The translations under genes were made by a program, and so were the position numbers. From Zopfochytrium polystomum (lineage: Eukaryota; Chytridiomycota; Chytridiomycetes; Chytridiales; Chytridiaceae): a DNA stretch of 64,000 bases. The notes beneath the pieces were generated by a model that saw only the letters and a list, made by a program, of their open reading frames with translations, ran no database searches and was not told the origin of the DNA. Positions within the stretch are counted from its first letter, which is position 1. The number at the start of each line of letters is the position of its first letter. The DNA lies in NCBI GenBank assembly GCA_025765615.1, contig JAIVFJ010000050.1, positions 62,001 through 126,000 of the forward strand. Direction: 5' to 3'. This document shows positions 1,402 through 26,188 of the stretch, piece after piece.

Positions 1402-3051
1402 CTAAAAGAGTTCCGAGATCCAATCCTCCAGAAATTTCCGTTGATCATTCAGCTGAGGTTCATTGTAAAAACTCGCAGGAATCTGGAAGGTGCTCATTGG
1501 TTGCAAAAAAAGCTGCAGCACTTCTAGGTCCGAGTTCGTAAATGCGTCTTGAGAGTACTTCAGCTCCAGTCCGCTTTTTTTCCAACAGGAGAGATTGAAA
1601 AATAGTTCGCGATTGGCAAGCCTTATCCAATGCTCTGGCTGCATATTTTAGCGTCAGACCGCTATCCTTCCACCATTGCAGAACATCAATGTGGCCTCCA
1701 ATCGAAGCATGGTCCACCGCTGCAGAGCTGTACCAATAGCCTAAACCACTGCTGGCCCACCACTGGAGGATTGTTGGTAGATTCAATGCTTTGCTTGCCA
1801 AATCCAAAGCTGCCTTTGAGAATCGCAGCTACAGACCACTTGCTCTCCACCACTCCAGAACAGCCAATTCACCTCGCAAATTTGCGCTATCAAGTCCGTT
1901 GTGACTGTACAGAAGTGTCAATCCACTATTTTCCACCAATCCAATACATCAATATGTTCAAATTCGCTTGCATCGTCCATCGCTCTAGCCCCGTATTTTA
2001 ATGCAAGGGAACTCGTATGCCACCACTGTAGCACTGAAACATGTCCAGATGAACTCGCCAAATTCATTGCCCAAACGTGGTACCCAGGAGCCAAACGGTT
2101 CTCCAACCACCACTCCAGGACTGACATGACCGTTCCTGCTTGCCATGTCCAACGGAGAAGAGTATTTCAACTTCAGTCCACTGCTTTTCCACCAACTCAA
2201 AACGTTCAAATAACCTGCTCCTGCTGCACTGTCGATCGCTGCGCTGGAGTATTTCAGCTCCAAGCCACTGCCTTTCCACCAATCCAGAACTGCAGTTTGG
2301 CCACATTTGCTGGCGTGATCGATTGCCATCATTGTGAATTTCAATTCGTATCCGCTCTGTTTCCAAAATTCCAACACTGCGACATGGCCATTGGCACTGG
2401 CGACATCCATGGCTGTGTTTGTGTACTGCGGAACCAATCCACTCTCTTTCCACCATTGAAGAACAAGAGCCTGGCCAGTTCGAGACGCTTCGTTGAGGGG
2501 AGGAGTAATTCCTCTTCAGCGTTGCGTACAGGAATCGCCAAGTCCAGTCCACCCTCCACCACTGCAGAACGTCAACATGCCCTGCATCACAAGCCGACAC
2601 TAGTGCCAGAAGTGAGTAGACTCCATCAAGCACGATTCCGCTGTCCTTCCACCACTGTAGCACGTGAACATGTCCGTTCTCGCTGGCGACGTCCATGGGA
2701 AGAGCGCAGGGATACTCTCCATCATCGTCGTCGTCATCGAAAAAGCGTGGGAACGACATGTCGACACCGCTTTCCTTCCACCACTGGAGAACCCGCACTT
2801 CTCCGACTTTGCTCGCAGCGGAGAGCGCCTGCAGGACGTCCATGACGGGCAACGGCGCGCAGATGTGCTGCAGCAACAGATAGAGCAGGTCGACGTGGCC
2901 ACCTTCGCTGGCCTCGGCGAGTGGCTGAGCGTGGAGCATATCGCGCTTGAATCTGGTGCAGCCGGAACAGCGCCGATAGGCGGATTGCATCCTCCGCGGT
3001 TAGATGGCGGCAGACGATCGCCACGGCGTGGCCTGGGAGGCTGGGTCGCGT
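1402..3051 (-). pseudogene. QWW-repeat protein pseudogene, full length, multiple frameshifts
   Basis: The whole architecture of an intact QWW gene can be followed on the minus strand, but in at least five alternating frames. The order is: F-box-like N-terminus (SLPGHAVAIVCRHLTAEDAI), first repeats (VLQWWKESGVDMS and VLQWWKDSGIVLDG), mid repeats around 1.9-2.4 kb (VLDWWKGSGLELKYSS), last repeats (HIDVLQWWKDSGLTLKY) and the family C-terminus ending RKFLEDWISELF with a stop at 1402. The expected start codon is ACG at 3051-3049 where relatives have ATG. No GT-AG introns reconcile the breaks, and intact relatives of the repeat body have none. The 5' end lies only 76 bp from the divergent TIR-NLR gene. 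Confidence 0.85.
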
Positions 3052-3127: not shown

Positions 3128-6100
3128 ATGCCAACGGAGCCGGCGCCGCTGACGCCATCCTCTTACGACGTAAGCGACGAAGCGTTTTGATCCCCTGCTA
3201 ACAGTCTCCCGCCCCCTTCCCCTCCCCCTCCCCTCTCCGACTTGATCGACTCTGCGTAGGTGATGATCAGCTACTGCTGGCAGGACAGCGCCATCGCGAG
3301 GGAGGTCGCGGACGAGCTCGACGCCCGCGGCTTCAGCATCTGGATCGACATCCAAAAGATGCACGGCGACATCAACGCGTCCATGATCGACGCCATCCTC
3401 AGCTCCAAAGTCGTTATAGCTTTCATTTCGGACGGGTACTGCAAGTCGGCAAACTGCTTGAAAGAGATTGAGTTTGCGAACGAGAAGAAGAAGACGATCG
3501 TTCCTGTCCGTCTGTCGCACTCGAAAGAAGTGACTTCGAGCATACCTGCTTTCATTACCACCGGCAAGCTGTGTGAGTATTCGTTTTCTTGAATAGTGGA
3601 CTTTGGGAATCTAATGCCATCATCGCCCCTAGACTTCGATCTAAGCCCGCCAATTTGGGCAGACCCCCAGCAACGACGTTCGACCGCAGAAAACCTGATT
3701 ACGCACCTGACGCAGTTCACCGGAAAAGCTCCTACGCTTGTGACTCCCGAGCCAGTCAAATCCGGGAAATGCTTCCCACCGATCCCGATACGAAAGGATC
3801 CCGAAAACTTTATCGACCGATCCGACTTGTGGGAGACGCTGGATGCTCGTTTCTCATCCGAGCGCCTCTGCATCCTCCGGGGCGTCGGCGGCTCTGGCAA
3901 GACGTACGCCGCAATCAAGTACGCGCACCAAAAGCTCCGCGAAGGCCACCACGTCAGCTGGTTCCGCGCCGACAGCCCGGACAACCTGCGCGCCGACGCG
4001 GTGCAGTACGCCGTCTTCGCGGGCCTCCCAGATCCCGAGAAGCTGTCCCCGGCAAACCTCTTTGCCCAAATCGCGTCCCTCCACGCGGCGGACGGGGCGC
4101 AACCGCGGCTGATCGTGCTCGACAACGTCGAGCGCTACGCAGACGTCGAAGACGTCATTGCCAGCCACGCCGAAAGCGGCGTCACCGCGGTCCGCTTCCT
4201 GGCGACGACGCGGCGGGCGCTACGGGAAGGCGGCGCAGTCGCCCCACTCCCGGCCGTCTCCGTGGACTTCCCCGACGACGAAAAGTGCGCTGCGTACCTG
4301 CGCCGCCTTCCCGGCCGGACCGTCCTCCCCGAAGACGCGGTGCGGATCGTCCGGCAGTGCGGGAACCTGCCTCTGCGGGTATCAGTCGCAGCGCGGTACC
4401 TCGTCAAGCGGCCGGACGTGACGGTCGACGCGTACCTTTCGCGGGTGGAGGGCGCCAAGCTGCGCAGGGCAGACGGCGGCGGGGATGCCGCAGACGAGAT
4501 CTACCCGGAGATCAGCCTGTCGATCGACACGCTCTCGAAAGAGTCGTCGCCGGGCCACGTGCTGCTGATGCTGATGGCGCTGCTGCATCCGGACAACATC
4601 ATCCTCAGCATCGTGGCGGAGTGGTGCGATTCGTTTTCCCTGACGGGCTTGTTTTTTTCGAGGCCAAAGACAAAGGACGGGAGCTTTGCGCGAGCCGTTG
4701 ATGCGCTGCTGGATCTGAACTTGATTTCGTCCGGGTACGAAGGGAAGACGGCGTCGATTCATCGGTGCATACAGGCGGACGTGCGGGAGCGGGTGCAGGT
4801 GGGCAGTGTGAAGAGTCAAAGTCGAGGCTTGGCGGACTTTTATTTGGCGGCGCTAAAGCAGAAGGATCGGCTGCTCGATGCGATCAAGAAAGGGAACGCC
4901 GGCGAGATAGACGTCTTTATCAGGGACAAACCTGTGCTTGATCTCTCTCGTGAGTTTGCTTTCCTTTATTAAGATACGAGGATCTGAAACGCTCGAAAAG
5001 ATTTGCACCTTGGCGATAAGGCCGTTGTCATGCTCGTACCTTCCCTTTCGGCTAGCTTGACCTTGCACACTTTGGACCTTACCGGTACCCATTTGAATTC
5101 TTAACATGTTTAACAACTCTCCGCTCCAATTAGGCAACGACCTGAGCCACGTTTCGATTGTTTCTCTCGCAGAGAGCGTTCGAAAGATGCCCCTCCTTCA
5201 CACTCTGATTTTGAGGAGTGCGCGGAACTTCTTTCTACTTTTCTCTCATCTCACCAAATGAACCACAAATTTTTCATCCAGTGAACAGAATCGGTCCAGT
5301 GGGATCCGCTGCACTAGCGTCGTGCCTTGGAACTCAATCGACGCTGCGGAAGCTGAATATCAGACGTAAGCGATTGAATATCACCCAAATCTCCTCGAGG
5401 ACCTGCTAAAAAATACCATCTCGCACCCACTGAAGAAAACGAGCTTCAAAGCGACGGTGCGACTGCGCTTGCCACCGCCTTGTTAAGCAACACTTCGCTC
5501 GAGGTGCTCGACATCAGCAGTGAGGATTGTTCTTCTTCGCAGTCATGTTTGACTTCGCAGCCATTTTTGATTGGCTGGTTCTCCCTTTGGAGGCCAGTGG
5601 GTGACGCTTTTTTTTCCCAACAGTGAACGGAATCACATCCGACGGCGCGCAAGCCATTTGGGAAGCCCTCGCGTCCAACACGACGTTGAAAAAGCTTCGT
5701 ACCGAAGGTGAGTTACGCACAGCTTTTCCGAGCTTGCCAGCAATGTGCGGAAACCGAGCGCCTCCCCCTACACCAGGCAACGAGCTTGCCGAACAAGCTC
5801 TTTCGAAACTTATCACGTCGGAGAAACTCAGCCTGGAGGAAGTTTCCCACTCAAGTAAAATTGGGCCTTCGTACTTTCCTAATCGAAAAAAGCTTTCTTT
5901 ATTTTAATGAGTGTCCATGTCTGCCACACTTGAAAAACACAAAAACAGGCCCCACCCTCGACTCCAAGATTTTACACGCGAGAATGTCCGTCACATGCAC
6001 GACAAGATTCATCAGTTGAGTTTTTTTTTTTGTTTTTTTATTTTTTTCTTCGGTGTGTCAACTCAATTAACCACAATTACCAGACGCCGACGCGATCACC

Positions 6101-6166
6101 AGTAGGTTTGTGTCGAAGATCAGCAGCGTCACTCCGTCAGCCTCTTCGTCCGGTTGGGACGACTAG
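3128..6166 (+). CDS. TIR / NB-ARC / LRR NLR immune-receptor-like protein (TNL)
   Basis: Ten exons, joined 3128-3169, 3260-3572, 3633-4949, 5001-5084, 5134-5217, 5282-5365, 5436-5519, 5624-5707, 5777-5854, 5949-6014 and 6084-6166, give an uninterrupted frame of 772 residues. All introns are GT-AG and 49-105 bp. Residues 13-140 are a TIR domain (YDVMISYCWQD; catalytic-type Glu83 in SANCLKEIEFA, matching the SxxCxxE motif of TIR NADases). Residues about 200-490 are NB-ARC: P-loop GVGGSGKT at about 202-209, Walker B LIVLDNVE at about 278-285, RFLATTRR sensor, GLPL-like GNLPLRV, and an MHD-position IHRC. Five to six ribonuclease-inhibitor-type LRRs follow (TLHTLDLTGNDLSHVSIVSL). Five LRR exons are exactly 84 nt (28 residues), all with phase-1 introns. 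Plant TNLs sense effectors and cleave NAD+; that role here is inference. Fungal NLRs normally carry NACHT/NB-ARC with ANK, TPR or WD40 repeats, so this layout is exceptional. Confidence 0.87.
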
Positions 6167-15303: not shown

Positions 15304-16553
15304 ATGCGCAACCTACTGCCCCTCCTCCTCGCCATCCTCACCTCCCTCCTCGCCGGCCTAACCGCCGTCGCCGCCGCCCCCATGGCGACCCCCATCACCC
15401 CCTGCGTCGTCAGCAGCTACGACGGCCTCAAAGCCTGCCTGACCTCGACCAACATCGTCCTTCAAGGTCCCTTCATCGTTCCCGCCAACAAAAAGATCGA
15501 CATGTCCAAGCTCAAGAAGGGTACCAACGTGACCGTCAAGGGGCTCATCAAGTTTGCGCACTCGACCAAGCTGACAAAGTCGGACTTTCTGTTTACGCTG
15601 GGCGGCGAGAAGGTGACGCTGGACGGGACGAAGGGGACGTTGCACGGGAGCGGGAGCAAGTATTGGGATACGAAGGGGACGACGGGGGTAAACAATAGTA
15701 AGTTGTAAACGGAGCCTGCTTTCCTCGCCCGTCGTTCCGTCTCATCATTCGCCAACCAAAAACAGAGCCCATGTTCGTCAAAGTCATCACGACGGGCCAC
15801 TCGCTCATCAAAGGCCTCACGGTCAAGAACCCGCCGGCCAACACGTTCAAGGTGGCCGGGTCCGACACGATCCTGAACGGCATCCACATTGACAGCAGCG
15901 ACGGCGACAAGAAGAAGAACGGCAAGACACTGGGCAGCGACACAAACGGTTTCGGTGAGTCGCGCCCTCTTCCAGATTTGCCTCTTTCTTCACACTCTAA
16001 CTATACCCCCCGAACAGACGTCACCGGCCACCGGATCACAATCCTCAGCAGCATCATCAAAAACCAAGCCGACTGCCTCACAATCCCCTCCGGCACGCAA
16101 ATCAACTTCCTCAACAACACCTGCAGCGGCGGCACCGGGATCTCCGTCGGCGCGGTCGCCTCCAACAAAGCCGTCACCCACGTCCGCGTGGAAAACTGCA
16201 CGGTCGCCAACTCGGACATTGGCATCCGGATTAAAACGCTAGCCGAAGCCGAGGACGGCAAAGTCTCCGACGTCTTGTTCCGCGACATCAAGCTGAAGGA
16301 CATTCGGAAGCGCGGGGTGGTGATCCGGCAGGACTTTTTGAAGGGCGCATCGACGGGGTCGCCGACGGACGGGGTGCCGATCACGAACGTGAGGTTGACG
16401 AACGTGCAGGGGAATATGGCGAAGGGGGCGACGCATAGCACGTTGGTGATGTGCGCGGCGTGCGAGGAGTTCAAGTTTACGAAAGTGAGGGTGACGGGGG
16501 CGAAGCCGAGTTGTATTGGGGTGAAGAAGTCGCTGGAGGGTTGCCATTCTTGA
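15304..16553 (+). CDS. GH28 polygalacturonase paralogue 1, active-site residues lost
   Basis: Exons 15304-15697, 15766-15954 and 16018-16553 give 372 residues with a signal peptide (MRNLLPLLLAILTSLLAGLT). The rest fits the right-handed beta-helix of GH28: WDTKG motif, turn repeats, and the C-terminal RIK (GIRIKT). Three of the residues that act in GH28 endopolygalacturonases are replaced: the NTD motif reads DTN (Asp to Asn192), the QDD motif reads QAD (first Asp to Ala212), and GHG reads GTG (His to Thr234). Only the second Asp (213) and RIK remain. This is therefore probably a catalytically dead secreted paralogue, perhaps a pectin-binding or decoy protein (inference). It is the first of three tandem copies with introns at the same positions. 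Confidence 0.88.
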
Positions 16554-17580: not shown

Positions 17581-18858
17581 ATGCACGTCCTGCCCGTCCT
17601 CGCCGCCGTCCTCGTGTCCACCTTGCTCGCCAGCCTCTCCCCCGCCGCCGTCGCCGCCGCGCCCTGCGTCGTCACCAGCTTCCACGCCCTCAAGAAATGC
17701 CTCACCTCGACCAACATTGTCCTGCAAGGCCCCTTCATCGTCCCCTCCAACCACAAGATCGACATGTCCAGCCTGAAGAAGGGCACGCACGTCACGGTCA
17801 AGGGGCTCATTAAGTTTGCGCACTCGACCAAGCTCACAAAGTCGGACTACCTGTTCACTCTGGGGGGCGAGTCGATCATCTTTGACGGGAAGGAGGGGAC
17901 GTTTCACGGCAACGGGCAGCAGTACTGGGATACGAAAGGAACGAACGGGGGAAACAAGAGTGAGTTGCGCTTCCTGGCTTGACTCCTTATCGGGGTGTTC
18001 CCACCTCTGACATCTCGTGGGGGGGACACGCAAATCTCTCTTGCGATGAACAGAACCAAAGTTCATCAAAGTCCGCACCACGGGCCAGTCTGTCATCAAG
18101 GGTCTCACCATCAAAAACTCGCCGGCCCACACTTTTAGCATCACGGGCTCTGACACCACCCTGAAGCGCATCACCATCGACAACAGCGACGGCGACAAGC
18201 AGAAGGGCGGCAAGGCGGTTGGCCACAACACGGACGGTTTCGGTGAGTTCGTCGTTCCTTTTGGGTCGATTACGCCCATCCTCCAAATTACTCATCACCC
18301 CTCGTCCCCACTCTCACCGCTGCAGACGTCAGCGGCAAGCACATCACCATCAAAGACAGCACCATCAAAAACCAAGACGACTGCCTATCCGTCGCCAGCG
18401 GGCACCACATCTACTTCCTCAACAACACCTGCACGGGCGGCAACGGGATCTCGGTCGGCTCGATCGCCTCGCACAAGTCCGTCTCGCACATCCGCGTCGA
18501 AAACTGCACGGTCGCCGATTCCGACATCGGCATCCGCATCAAAACCATCGCGGAAGCCGAGGACGGGAAAGTCGAGGACGTGCATTTCAAGGACATTGTG
18601 CTGAAGGACATTCGGAAGCGCGGGGTGTCGATCCGGCAGGACTATTTGAACGCAGGGCCGACGATGACGCCGACGGACGGGATCCCGATCTCGAATGTGA
18701 GGCTGACGAACGTGCAGGGGACGATGGCGAAGGGCGCGAAGCACAGCACGTTTGTGTTGTGCGCTGCTTGCGATGGGTTCAAGTTTACAAACGTGAAGAT
18801 TACGGGGGCGACGCCGAGCTGCACAGGCGTGGAAAAGACGTTGGTGGGTTGTACGTAA
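17581..18858 (+). CDS. GH28 polygalacturonase paralogue 2, GHG to GNG
   Basis: Exons 17581-17959, 18054-18242 and 18326-18858 give 366 residues. The signal peptide MHVLPVLAAVLVSTLLASLS precedes the GH28 beta-helix. NTDGFD, NQDDC and GIRIKT are all present, so the catalytic acids and substrate-binding Arg/Lys are intact, but the conserved GHG histidine is Asn (TGGNGIS). Pectin backbone hydrolysis may be reduced or altered. Intron positions and phases match those of its neighbours (both phase 1). Tandem plus-strand copies with separate upstream regions suggest each has its own promoter. Confidence 0.9.
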
Positions 18859-24279: not shown

Positions 24280-24508
24280 TGTTCACGTGTGTCAACAGTC
24301 GCTGGTCAATATTTAGCCACTTAATAAACAATTTTGCCAGAGAAACTGAGTTTATTTGGCTTTGGGGGGGAAGGGACTTCGCAAAAATAGGCGAAGGGAC
24401 TGTTGCGCCTTGTCACAAACATCGTATTTGGTCTGCCTGGACGGCGCAGTCATAGTTGGAGGGACAGATTTTGTGTCTCCTCCACCACGTTTGATCGATC
24501 TCCCAACC

Positions 24509-26188
24509 ATGCAAGCCAGCCTCCCAGCCCACGCCGTCCAGATCGTCTGCCGCTATCTGCCCGCCAAGGAAGCGATCCACCTTTCGACACTGTTTCGACT
24601 ACGCCAGGTGCAAGCCCGTTCCTATCTCAAGCTCTTTCCACGTCCATTCGCAGAGGCCAGCGAACGTGGGCCCGTCGATCTGCTGGACTTGTTGCTGCAG
24701 CACCACTGCGCGCCAATTTCGGACGTATGGGAGGCGCTATCCCGTGCGAGCGGTCGTGGACACGTTACAGTCCTCCAGTGGTGGAAGGAAAGCGGCGTAG
24801 ACCTGTCGATCGTGACGTTTGACGACGAGAATGGGGAGAACTGCAATCTTCCCATGGACGCAGCCAGCGAAAACGGACACGTTCAAGTGCTGCAGTGGTG
24901 GAAGGACAGTGGAATCGAGCTCGACAGGTTCTACTCCGGCCTGGCATTGGAGCTGGCTTCCGCAGAAGGACATATTTGCGTTCTGCACTGGTGGAGAGAC
25001 AGCGGGCTCGACTTGTTAAAGCCTGTTCCTGTTGACGCGTTCGACATCGACGAAGAGGAGTTGCTTCCCCTCGACAGCGCGTCCCGCGGGGGTTATGTGC
25101 CCGTCCTTCAGTGGTGGAAGGAGAGTGGTCTGGTTCCAGAGTATACGGACAAAGCCATGGACGGCGCGAGTATGAATGGCCATGTTGCAGTGTTGCAATG
25201 GTGGAAGGAGAGCAGATACCAACTGAAATTCACGAAGAGGGCAATTAATCAAGCCAGCAAAAAGGGCCATGCTGCAGTTTTGGAATGGTGGAAAGCCAGC
25301 AGCCTGGAGCTCAAATACTCCAACAATGCTATTGACGGTGCAGCTGCAGCTGGCTTTTTGGAAGTCTTGAGTTGGTGGAAAAACAGTGGACTCGAGTTGA
25401 AGTATTGCGATGCGATGGACCTTGCAAGTGAGAATGGACATGTCAAAGTCCTGGAGTGGTGGTTGCTGAATGGTTTGAAGCCCATATACAGCGCAGACGC
25501 AGTGGATGGCGCAAGCGCAGAAGGTCATGTTTCAGTCCTCCAATGGTGGGATGCAAGCCCCTTTGAGTTGAAATACTCTGCCGTAGCAATGGACTCCGCA
25601 AGCTTCTTCTGTCGCTTGCAAGTTTTGGACTGGTGGAAAAATAGCAGACACAGTCTCCGGTACACCAACCGTGCCCTTGATGGCGCATACATGGAATGCC
25701 ATGTACCTGTCCTGGCGTGGTGGCGAGCAAGTGGCCTGAAGCTGGAGTTCACAAAAAACGCTGTTGATTCTGCAAGCAAAACAGGCAACTTAGCGATTCT
25801 TCGGTGGTGGGGCAAGAGCAGACTGGCACTGAAGTATACATCTGCGGCAATGGATGGTGCTTCAGTTGCAGGCTACACTGATGTACTGCAATGGTGGAAG
25901 GATAGCGGCTTCCCGCTGGAATATTCTGCCAGAGCATTGGATGACGCTTGCAAGCCTAGCAATTTGCAAACCGTCTTCAAAACTCTTCTGTGGTGGAAAG
26001 CAAGTGGACTCGAGCTTAAATATTCTCAAAATGCGTTTACAAACGCGAACCTGGAGGTTTTGCAGTTTATGAAAGCAAATGGTCTGAATCCAAAGACTGC
26101 CTTTCGGCTTCCCGCAAAGTTCTACAATCAGCCTGAGTTGCATGATCAACGGAAGTTTCTGGAGGATTGGATCGCGGAAATATTCTAA
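24509..26188 (+). CDS. QWW-repeat protein, long form (559 aa), intronless
   Basis: One uninterrupted frame starts at the ATG at 24509 (MQASLPAHAVQIVCRYLPAK), chosen because all relatives begin at this point. Residues 1-45 form an F-box-like helix pair ending STLFRLRQVQARS. About 15 tandem repeats of mostly 28-29 residues follow. The consensus is AMDxASxxGHVxVLQWWKxSGLELKYSxx, spaced like ankyrin repeats (the Asp-x-Ala-Ser and GH positions match ankyrin TPLHxAA and GH) but with a conserved Trp-Trp pair. Two repeats carry acidic insertions (FDDENGEN; DIDEEE). The conserved tail is NQPELHDQRKFLEDWIAEIF. Family function unknown. No signal peptide or TM; probably intracellular. Confidence 0.88.
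   Translation: MQASLPAHAVQIVCRYLPAKEAIHLSTLFRLRQVQARSYLKLFPRPFAEASERGPVDLLDLLLQHHCAPISDVWEALSRASGRGHVTVLQWWKESGVDLSIVTFDDENGENCNLPMDAASENGHVQVLQWWKDSGIELDRFYSGLALELASAEGHICVLHWWRDSGLDLLKPVPVDAFDIDEEELLPLDSASRGGYVPVLQWWKESGLVPEYTDKAMDGASMNGHVAVLQWWKESRYQLKFTKRAINQASKKGHAAVLEWWKASSLELKYSNNAIDGAAAAGFLEVLSWWKNSGLELKYCDAMDLASENGHVKVLEWWLLNGLKPIYSADAVDGASAEGHVSVLQWWDASPFELKYSAVAMDSASFFCRLQVLDWWKNSRHSLRYTNRALDGAYMECHVPVLAWWRASGLKLEFTKNAVDSASKTGNLAILRWWGKSRLALKYTSAAMDGASVAGYTDVLQWWKDSGFPLEYSARALDDACKPSNLQTVFKTLLWWKASGLELKYSQNAFTNANLEVLQFMKANGLNPKTAFRLPAKFYNQPELHDQRKFLEDWIAEIF

Follow-up and report, generated by a model that had tools for sequence, protein, structure and literature searches.

Can a fungus encode a receptor that joins a TIR domain, a nucleotide-binding (NB) switch and leucine-rich repeats (LRRs) in one polypeptide? 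The question is raised by a gene at positions 3128..6166 on the forward strand of a stretch of 64,000 nucleotides (nt), hereafter the window, which comprises bases 62001-126000 of contig C50 (346,908 bases) of Zopfochytrium polystomum (Chytridiomycota, Chytridiales; genome 80.16 Mb, 761 contigs). An earlier note on this DNA had described an intact TIR-NB-LRR gene here. This description holds, as the coordinates are exact, the predicted exons form a single open frame, and TIR_2, LRR_6 and DUF7779 are found above their Pfam cut-offs.

The gene is at odds with published surveys of fungal NOD-like receptors (NLRs), as the note had also claimed and as far as the accessible parts of these sources extend. 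There, neither a combination of NB-ARC with LRR nor TIR (PF01582) is found in any fungal protein in 2010 (PMC2939053), fungal NLRs are described without LRR in 2014 (PMC4986451), and a 2025 review (PMC12881547) restates this absence; the repeats named in the three sources are WD40, ANK or TPR. In the accessible part of PMC12258605, which covers 122 proteomes including ten from chytrids, LRRs are counted among the repeats. Within the same limits, the literature search gave no report of a fungal TIR-NB-LRR protein, and an unremarked case may stand in table S9 of PMC12258605. TIR in chytrid NLRs is already mentioned in PMC9815663 (2022); what appears to be new is the TIR-NB-LRR build in a fungus. 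A chytrid family of this kind would change the survey view that fungi have no NB-LRR, would add a lineage for asking why LRR receptors arise, and would offer a receptor with one exon per repeat. It could be missed because the public model of the window gene is truncated and a homologue in Nowakowskiella goes by the name cytokinesis protein 3.

Gene structure

From the start ATG at 3128 to the final base of the stop codon at 6166, splicing gives 11 predicted exons and a protein of 772 amino acids (aa) with 0 internal stops. All 10 introns (49-104 nt) are bounded by GT..AG; the earlier note had given both nine and ten, and only ten agrees with the splicing. TIR, an NB-ARC-class module with DUF7779, and LRRs of the ribonuclease-inhibitor (RI) type follow each other in this frame. 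An N-terminal effector domain, an NB switch and C-terminal repeats within a single open frame correspond to the layout of an NLR (STAND receptor). In Pfam the protein scores 75.5 bits for TIR_2 (cut-off 28), 54.5 for LRR_6 (23.4) and 33.6 for DUF7779 (27). The Rfam search of the window at gathering thresholds gave no match. The features of the gene, all on the forward strand, are as follows.

3128..6166 (+): whole gene, 11 exons, predicted 772-aa TIR-NB-LRR protein, from splicing; aa 431-772 equal the deposited P0025
3128..3169 (+): exon 1, 42 nt, with the start codon, ending ..SSYD before a phase-0 intron; a 42-nt first exon is also found in both copies on contig C250
3260..3572 (+): exon 2, 313 nt, bulk of the TIR domain; a 313-nt exon is found in 23 of the 23 best TIR loci
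3446..3466 (+): SxxCxxE motif, S77-C80-E83, C and E invariant in the alignments; Glu codon at 3464-3466, predicted catalytic
3633..4949 (+): exon 3, 1317 nt, linker, NB-ARC-class nucleotide-binding module and DUF7779/winged-helix region
3881..3904 (+): P-loop GVGGSGKT, located in the translation
4109..4129 (+): Walker B LIVLDNV, located in the translation
4361..4378 (+): GLPL-like GNLPLR, located in the translation
4532..4798 (+): DUF7779 match in Pfam, aa 419-507, including IHR at the MHD position (4757-4768 codes IHRC)
5001..5084 (+): LRR exon 1, 84 nt, phase 1-1, from splicing; LRR profile score 6.2
5134..5217 (+): LRR exon 2, 84 nt, phase 1-1, from splicing and LRR profile
5282..5365 (+): LRR exon 3, 84 nt, phase 1-1, from splicing and LRR profile
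5436..5519 (+): LRR exon 4, 84 nt, phase 1-1, from splicing and LRR profile
5624..5707 (+): LRR exon 5, 84 nt, phase 1-1, from splicing and LRR profile
5777..5854 (+): exon 9, 78 nt, partial LRR-like unit, the same in deposited P0025
5949..6166 (+): exons 10-11 (5949-6014 and 6084-6166), C-terminal tail without recognised domain, from splicing, Pfam and P0025

The deposited model P0025 (DFJ73DRAFT_834276, 342 aa) is identical to the C-terminal part of our model. A chance joining of exons was rejected because the model of a paralog on contig C550, made independently beforehand, is identical letter for letter to the deposited protein P0023 (DFJ73DRAFT_885788).

TIR domain and TIR exon

The TIR_2 match (aa 15-123) extends a few residues past exon 2 into exon 3. 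The glutamate of the SxxCxxE motif, which the earlier note had named, was located at residue 83 and is present in every TIR aligned. The best matches of the predicted fold include the NADases SARM1, SPARTA and AbTir; a TIR fold with the conserved glutamate is predicted here as in TIR NADases. PADLOC returned weak matches at TIR level only.

The 313-nt exon recurs in the genome. Among 85 genomic TIR_2 matches the best 23 were examined, and in all 23 an AG precedes the M of M(I/V)SY by one codon and is followed by a GT at a distance of exactly 313 nt. Near copies occur among these loci, which therefore do not count as 23 independent events. By reading, the exon is followed by a protein kinase at seven loci (L003, L005, L006, L009, L010, L014, L023), and Pfam gave a split protein kinase domain at four of the four loci checked (L003, L009, L014, L023). 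Sel1 repeats follow, again by reading, at three loci (L001, L021, L022), those of L001 reaching 215.9 bits in Pfam. Since the same exon is common to TNL (TIR-NB-LRR), kinase and Sel1 genes, the simplest reading of these sequences is a single shuffled module that was joined to different partners.

Further TIR arrangements were observed in the genome. In L018 (1840-3264) the TIR exon continues into a 475-aa open frame with no Pfam match, and the tandem TIR_2 matches L024 and L025 (C24:199729-200748), about 390 bases apart, are possibly one double-TIR gene. For sixteen of the 85 TIR matches a NACHT match follows on the same strand at less than 1.5 kb (e.g. contigs C18, C57, C67, C436), and these loci may represent a second TIR-NLR class in Zopfochytrium. 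The genome contains at least 86 NACHT and 28 HET matches; the NACHT count is a minimum.

Nucleotide-binding module

Among solved structures, the NB profile finds AfsR from bacteria (E 4.8e-7) and Roq1 from plants (E 1.4e-6). For the window protein the best Pfam NB match is nSTAND_NTPase5 with 28.6 bits, below the cut-off of 34, and AAA models match the same part, likewise below their cut-offs. NB-ARC is matched at E<=0.01 in the other four of the five aligned family members; the paralog P0023 passes the Pfam NB-ARC cut-off (25.4 vs 23.5), as do P0001 and P0002 from Physocladia obscura. Searches of the window protein against Pfam NACHT and TPR gave no match at E<=1, and LRRs are found instead of TPR.

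LRR exons

Five consecutive exons measure exactly 84 nt each, run from phase 1 to phase 1 and code for one LRR apiece. With the LRR profile these exons score 6.2 to 52.0; the rest of the window offers 184 AG-84 nt-GT candidates, none of which scores above -3.9. Four of the five exons were included in the seed of the profile; the fifth, outside the seed, gave the value of 6.2. Compared with the PDB, the profile has ribonuclease inhibitors and NLRPs among its best matches, in accordance with the RI type assigned by the earlier note.

Gene family and relatives

The NB part has 17 genomic matches, which were grouped into 10 loci. TIR, NB and LRR exons stand together at five loci on four contigs, namely the window gene, C550, two inverted copies on C250, and C114; the five other NB loci (C443, C493, C710, C50 at 34 kb, C85) are damaged or cut. 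The C550 model (contig of 25,612 bases) consists of 12 exons (24, 313, 1398, 87, 87, six of 84, and 80 nt) and codes for a TIR-NB-LRR protein of 830 aa. Both C250 copies begin with exons of 42, 313 and 1356 nt, continue with nine LRR exons each (102, 81, seven of 84 nt) and have an open tail, giving 898 and 892 aa. On C114 (211,094 bases), where the further family member P0040 (DFJ73DRAFT_962876) is located, seven 84-nt LRR exons were found with the same LRR-exon finder.

In Nowakowskiella sp. the full-length protein P0024 (793 aa) scores 70.6 for TIR_2, 85.6 for LRR_6 and 22.5 for NB-ARC, the last just under the cut-off of 23.5; P0039 (709 aa) is partial. P0001 and P0002 are partial as well, with TIR_2 and NB-ARC above cut-off. 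Their final ~30 residues resemble a first LRR by reading, and Pfam lists no LRR there. The TIR-NB-LRR relatives P0024 and P0042 (Nowakowskiella sp. JEL0407) were deposited as cytokinesis protein 3, an apparent misannotation.

Constraint on the coding exons

In the TIR and NB exons of the C250 pair 11 codons differ, 11 by silent and 0 by replacement changes. In the LRR exons 28 codons differ, 14 silent and 14 replacement, and the contrast is significant (Fisher p 0.003; 0.005 when the last two exons are left out). In these last two the synonymous divergence (dS) is 0.51 vs 0.02-0.03 elsewhere, and the introns preceding them have diverged (similarity 0.63 and 0.64), which points to an exchange with another copy. 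Changes private to the window lineage comprise 4 silent ones and 1 replacement (P about 0.02). The bias towards silent changes in the C250 pair and in the window lineage argues, with small numbers, that TIR and NB are translated. In the duplicated pair, TIR and NB are under purifying selection and the LRRs change faster, with exon exchange likely.

Proposed function and alternatives

We consider it probable, at roughly 60%, that the gene joins a TIR, an NB-ARC-class switch and RI-type LRRs and that its product is an intracellular receptor which would cleave NAD+ when triggered. In the resting state ADP would occupy the NB/winged-helix module, which the LRRs would keep shut. Binding of a ligand, a foreign or a self-marker molecule, to the LRRs would lead to nucleotide exchange and oligomerisation. 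The oligomer would bring the TIRs together, so that by way of Glu83 NAD+ could be cleaved or a nucleotide signal produced, and the cell would die or stop growing. What we infer from the sequence are the expression of the gene, its ligand, oligomerisation, NAD+ cleavage and the outcome; a putative enzymatic activity and a putative immune or self-recognition role are based on sequence, conservation and predicted fold.

Several observations weigh against such a receptor. The joined gene model is predicted from the sequence, and P0025 begins at the internal Met431 within exon 3, therefore TIR and NB are missing from the public model. Pfam NB-ARC gives no match to the window protein at E<=1, and the window gene was absent from the NB-ARC search of the own genome, which listed C27, C174, C550 and the two copies on C250. 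The P-loop, Walker B and GLPL-like motifs that the earlier note had given for the NB-ARC core are in place. Four copies that are 94-99% identical to the window gene are fragmentary or frameshifted. In the AlphaFold2 (AF2) model of the paralog the predicted template modelling score (pTM) is 0.47 and the TIR is not placed. The predicted TIR fold also resembles the non-enzymatic MyD88 and deoxyribosyltransferases with Z barely lower. Positive selection on the LRRs was not found in the C250 pair, where dN/dS is <1.

The main rival, which we regard as unlikely, is a non-enzymatic receptor. Here the TIR would be a scaffold that recruits TIR-kinase proteins of the own genome, and the signal would be phosphorylation, not loss of NAD+. 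The occurrence of the 313-nt TIR exon in genes continuing into a protein kinase domain fits this proposal, as does the presence of MyD88 TIRs among the matches by sequence profile and by fold. The invariable glutamate and the NADases among the best predicted fold matches speak for an NAD+-cleaving receptor, although a scaffold role is still compatible with both.

Less likely still is a decaying relic, in which just the deposited 342-aa DUF7779-LRR piece would be expressed and the upstream TIR and NB exons would no longer be joined. The deposited start at Met431 and the damaged or cut state of the four near-identical copies are in line with decay. Against it, the TIR and NB frames are open, all junctions are canonical, and the NB shares one exon with the deposited start. 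The excess of silent over replacement changes in the window lineage (4 to 1) and the deposition of the paralog P0023 as a single full-length protein also favour the receptor joined from TIR, NB and LRRs.

Descent of the family

The NB tree was built from 37 chosen rows, with P0040 and P0025 left out and plants represented by three TNLs and one CNL. Several of its 'bacterial' and two 'metazoan' rows are metagenome proteins labelled by their domains, and the 11 'chytrid' rows include P0043, a row without chytrid source label. These 11 family rows form a single clade (100/100), and the four plant rows split off (100/97). Constraining the family with the three plant TNLs was rejected in the approximately unbiased (AU) test with p 0.0106; groupings with all four plant rows (p 0.268), Dikarya (0.132) or bacterial rows (0.216) were not. 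In the TIR tree, which is weak (104 columns, 8 of 30 inner branches starred), the TIRs of the Zopfochytrium TNL, kinase and Sel1 proteins group with two Physocladia TIRs (95/88) at poor internal resolution; holding all TNL TIRs together, including the three plant ones, gave p 0.058.

Transfer of a plant TNL gene into the chytrid is very improbable. The domain order is the same, the NB profile fits Roq1 nearly as well as AfsR, and the grouping with all four plant rows was not rejected. The AU rejection of the grouping with plant TNLs alone, however, makes a late gift from a plant TNL unlikely, and a specific plant-TNL origin was rejected. Moreover, the LRRs are RI-type, DUF7779 is present here and not listed for the plant matches P0088, P0094 and P0138, and introns and exon plan are common to the own-genome paralogs. 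Kinship with plant TNLs is not supported; the IHR at the MHD position also departs from them. An assembly artefact or contamination, for which only the two inverted C250 copies on one contig, possibly hiding an assembly fault there, could be cited, has a negligible probability, as the same exon plan occurs at five loci on four contigs, relatives occur in the separately deposited Physocladia and Nowakowskiella genomes, and the long contig was deposited as Zopfochytrium polystomum; the note's view that the gene is no contaminant is supported.

Exon shuffling within chytrids probably gave rise to the family, with a portable 313-nt TIR exon, an NB-ARC-DUF7779 exon and 84-nt LRR exons as its building blocks. 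Whether NB-LRR was thereby invented for a third time, in fungi and without descent from the plant or animal receptors, with interchangeable 84-nt phase 1-1 LRR exons, we judge to be evenly balanced. In such a third invention the 313-nt TIR exon would also have been dealt to kinases and Sel1 proteins, and the one-repeat exons would allow single repeats of the recognition surface to be added or swapped.

Comparison with known systems

With the plant TNLs Roq1, RPP1 and N-like proteins the chytrid gene shares the order of N-terminal TIR, NB-ARC-class NB and C-terminal LRRs; it differs by RI-type LRRs, DUF7779 and IHR in place of MHD. RI-type LRRs are common to the chytrid gene and the animal NLRs NOD2 and NLRP3, which carry NACHT and CARD or PYD where the chytrid gene has the NB-ARC class and TIR. 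Animal NLRs are the best Foldseek matches of the paralog model at a high root-mean-square deviation (rmsd), so that the predicted similarity is to be read domain by domain. NB-ARC with DUF7779 is shared with Streptomyces FxSxx-COOH proteins and Dikarya NLRs, and TIR with the bacterial ones. DUF7779 NB-ARC-TPR proteins are the nearest non-chytrid full-length matches (20-26% identity), with TPR instead of LRR. The TIR NADases SARM1, AbTir and SPARTA share the predicted fold and the glutamate, whereas their partner domains differ. Other fungal NLRs (HET, NACHT or NB-ARC with ANK, TPR or WD40) show the same modular effector-NB-repeat build; LRRs are not found on them in the accessible parts of PMC4986451 and PMC12881547, in contrast to the chytrid gene.

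Neighbouring genes in the window

Immediately upstream of the TIR-NB-LRR gene and divergent from it, positions 2067-2999 (-) code for ankyrin-like repeats with an Ank_4 score of 22.4 bits, just below the cut-off. Ankyrin-like repeats were also found at 24350-26185 (+) with 85.8 bits. At least two Glycosyl hydrolase family 28 (polygalacturonase) genes are located at 15702-16550 and 18247-18855 (+).
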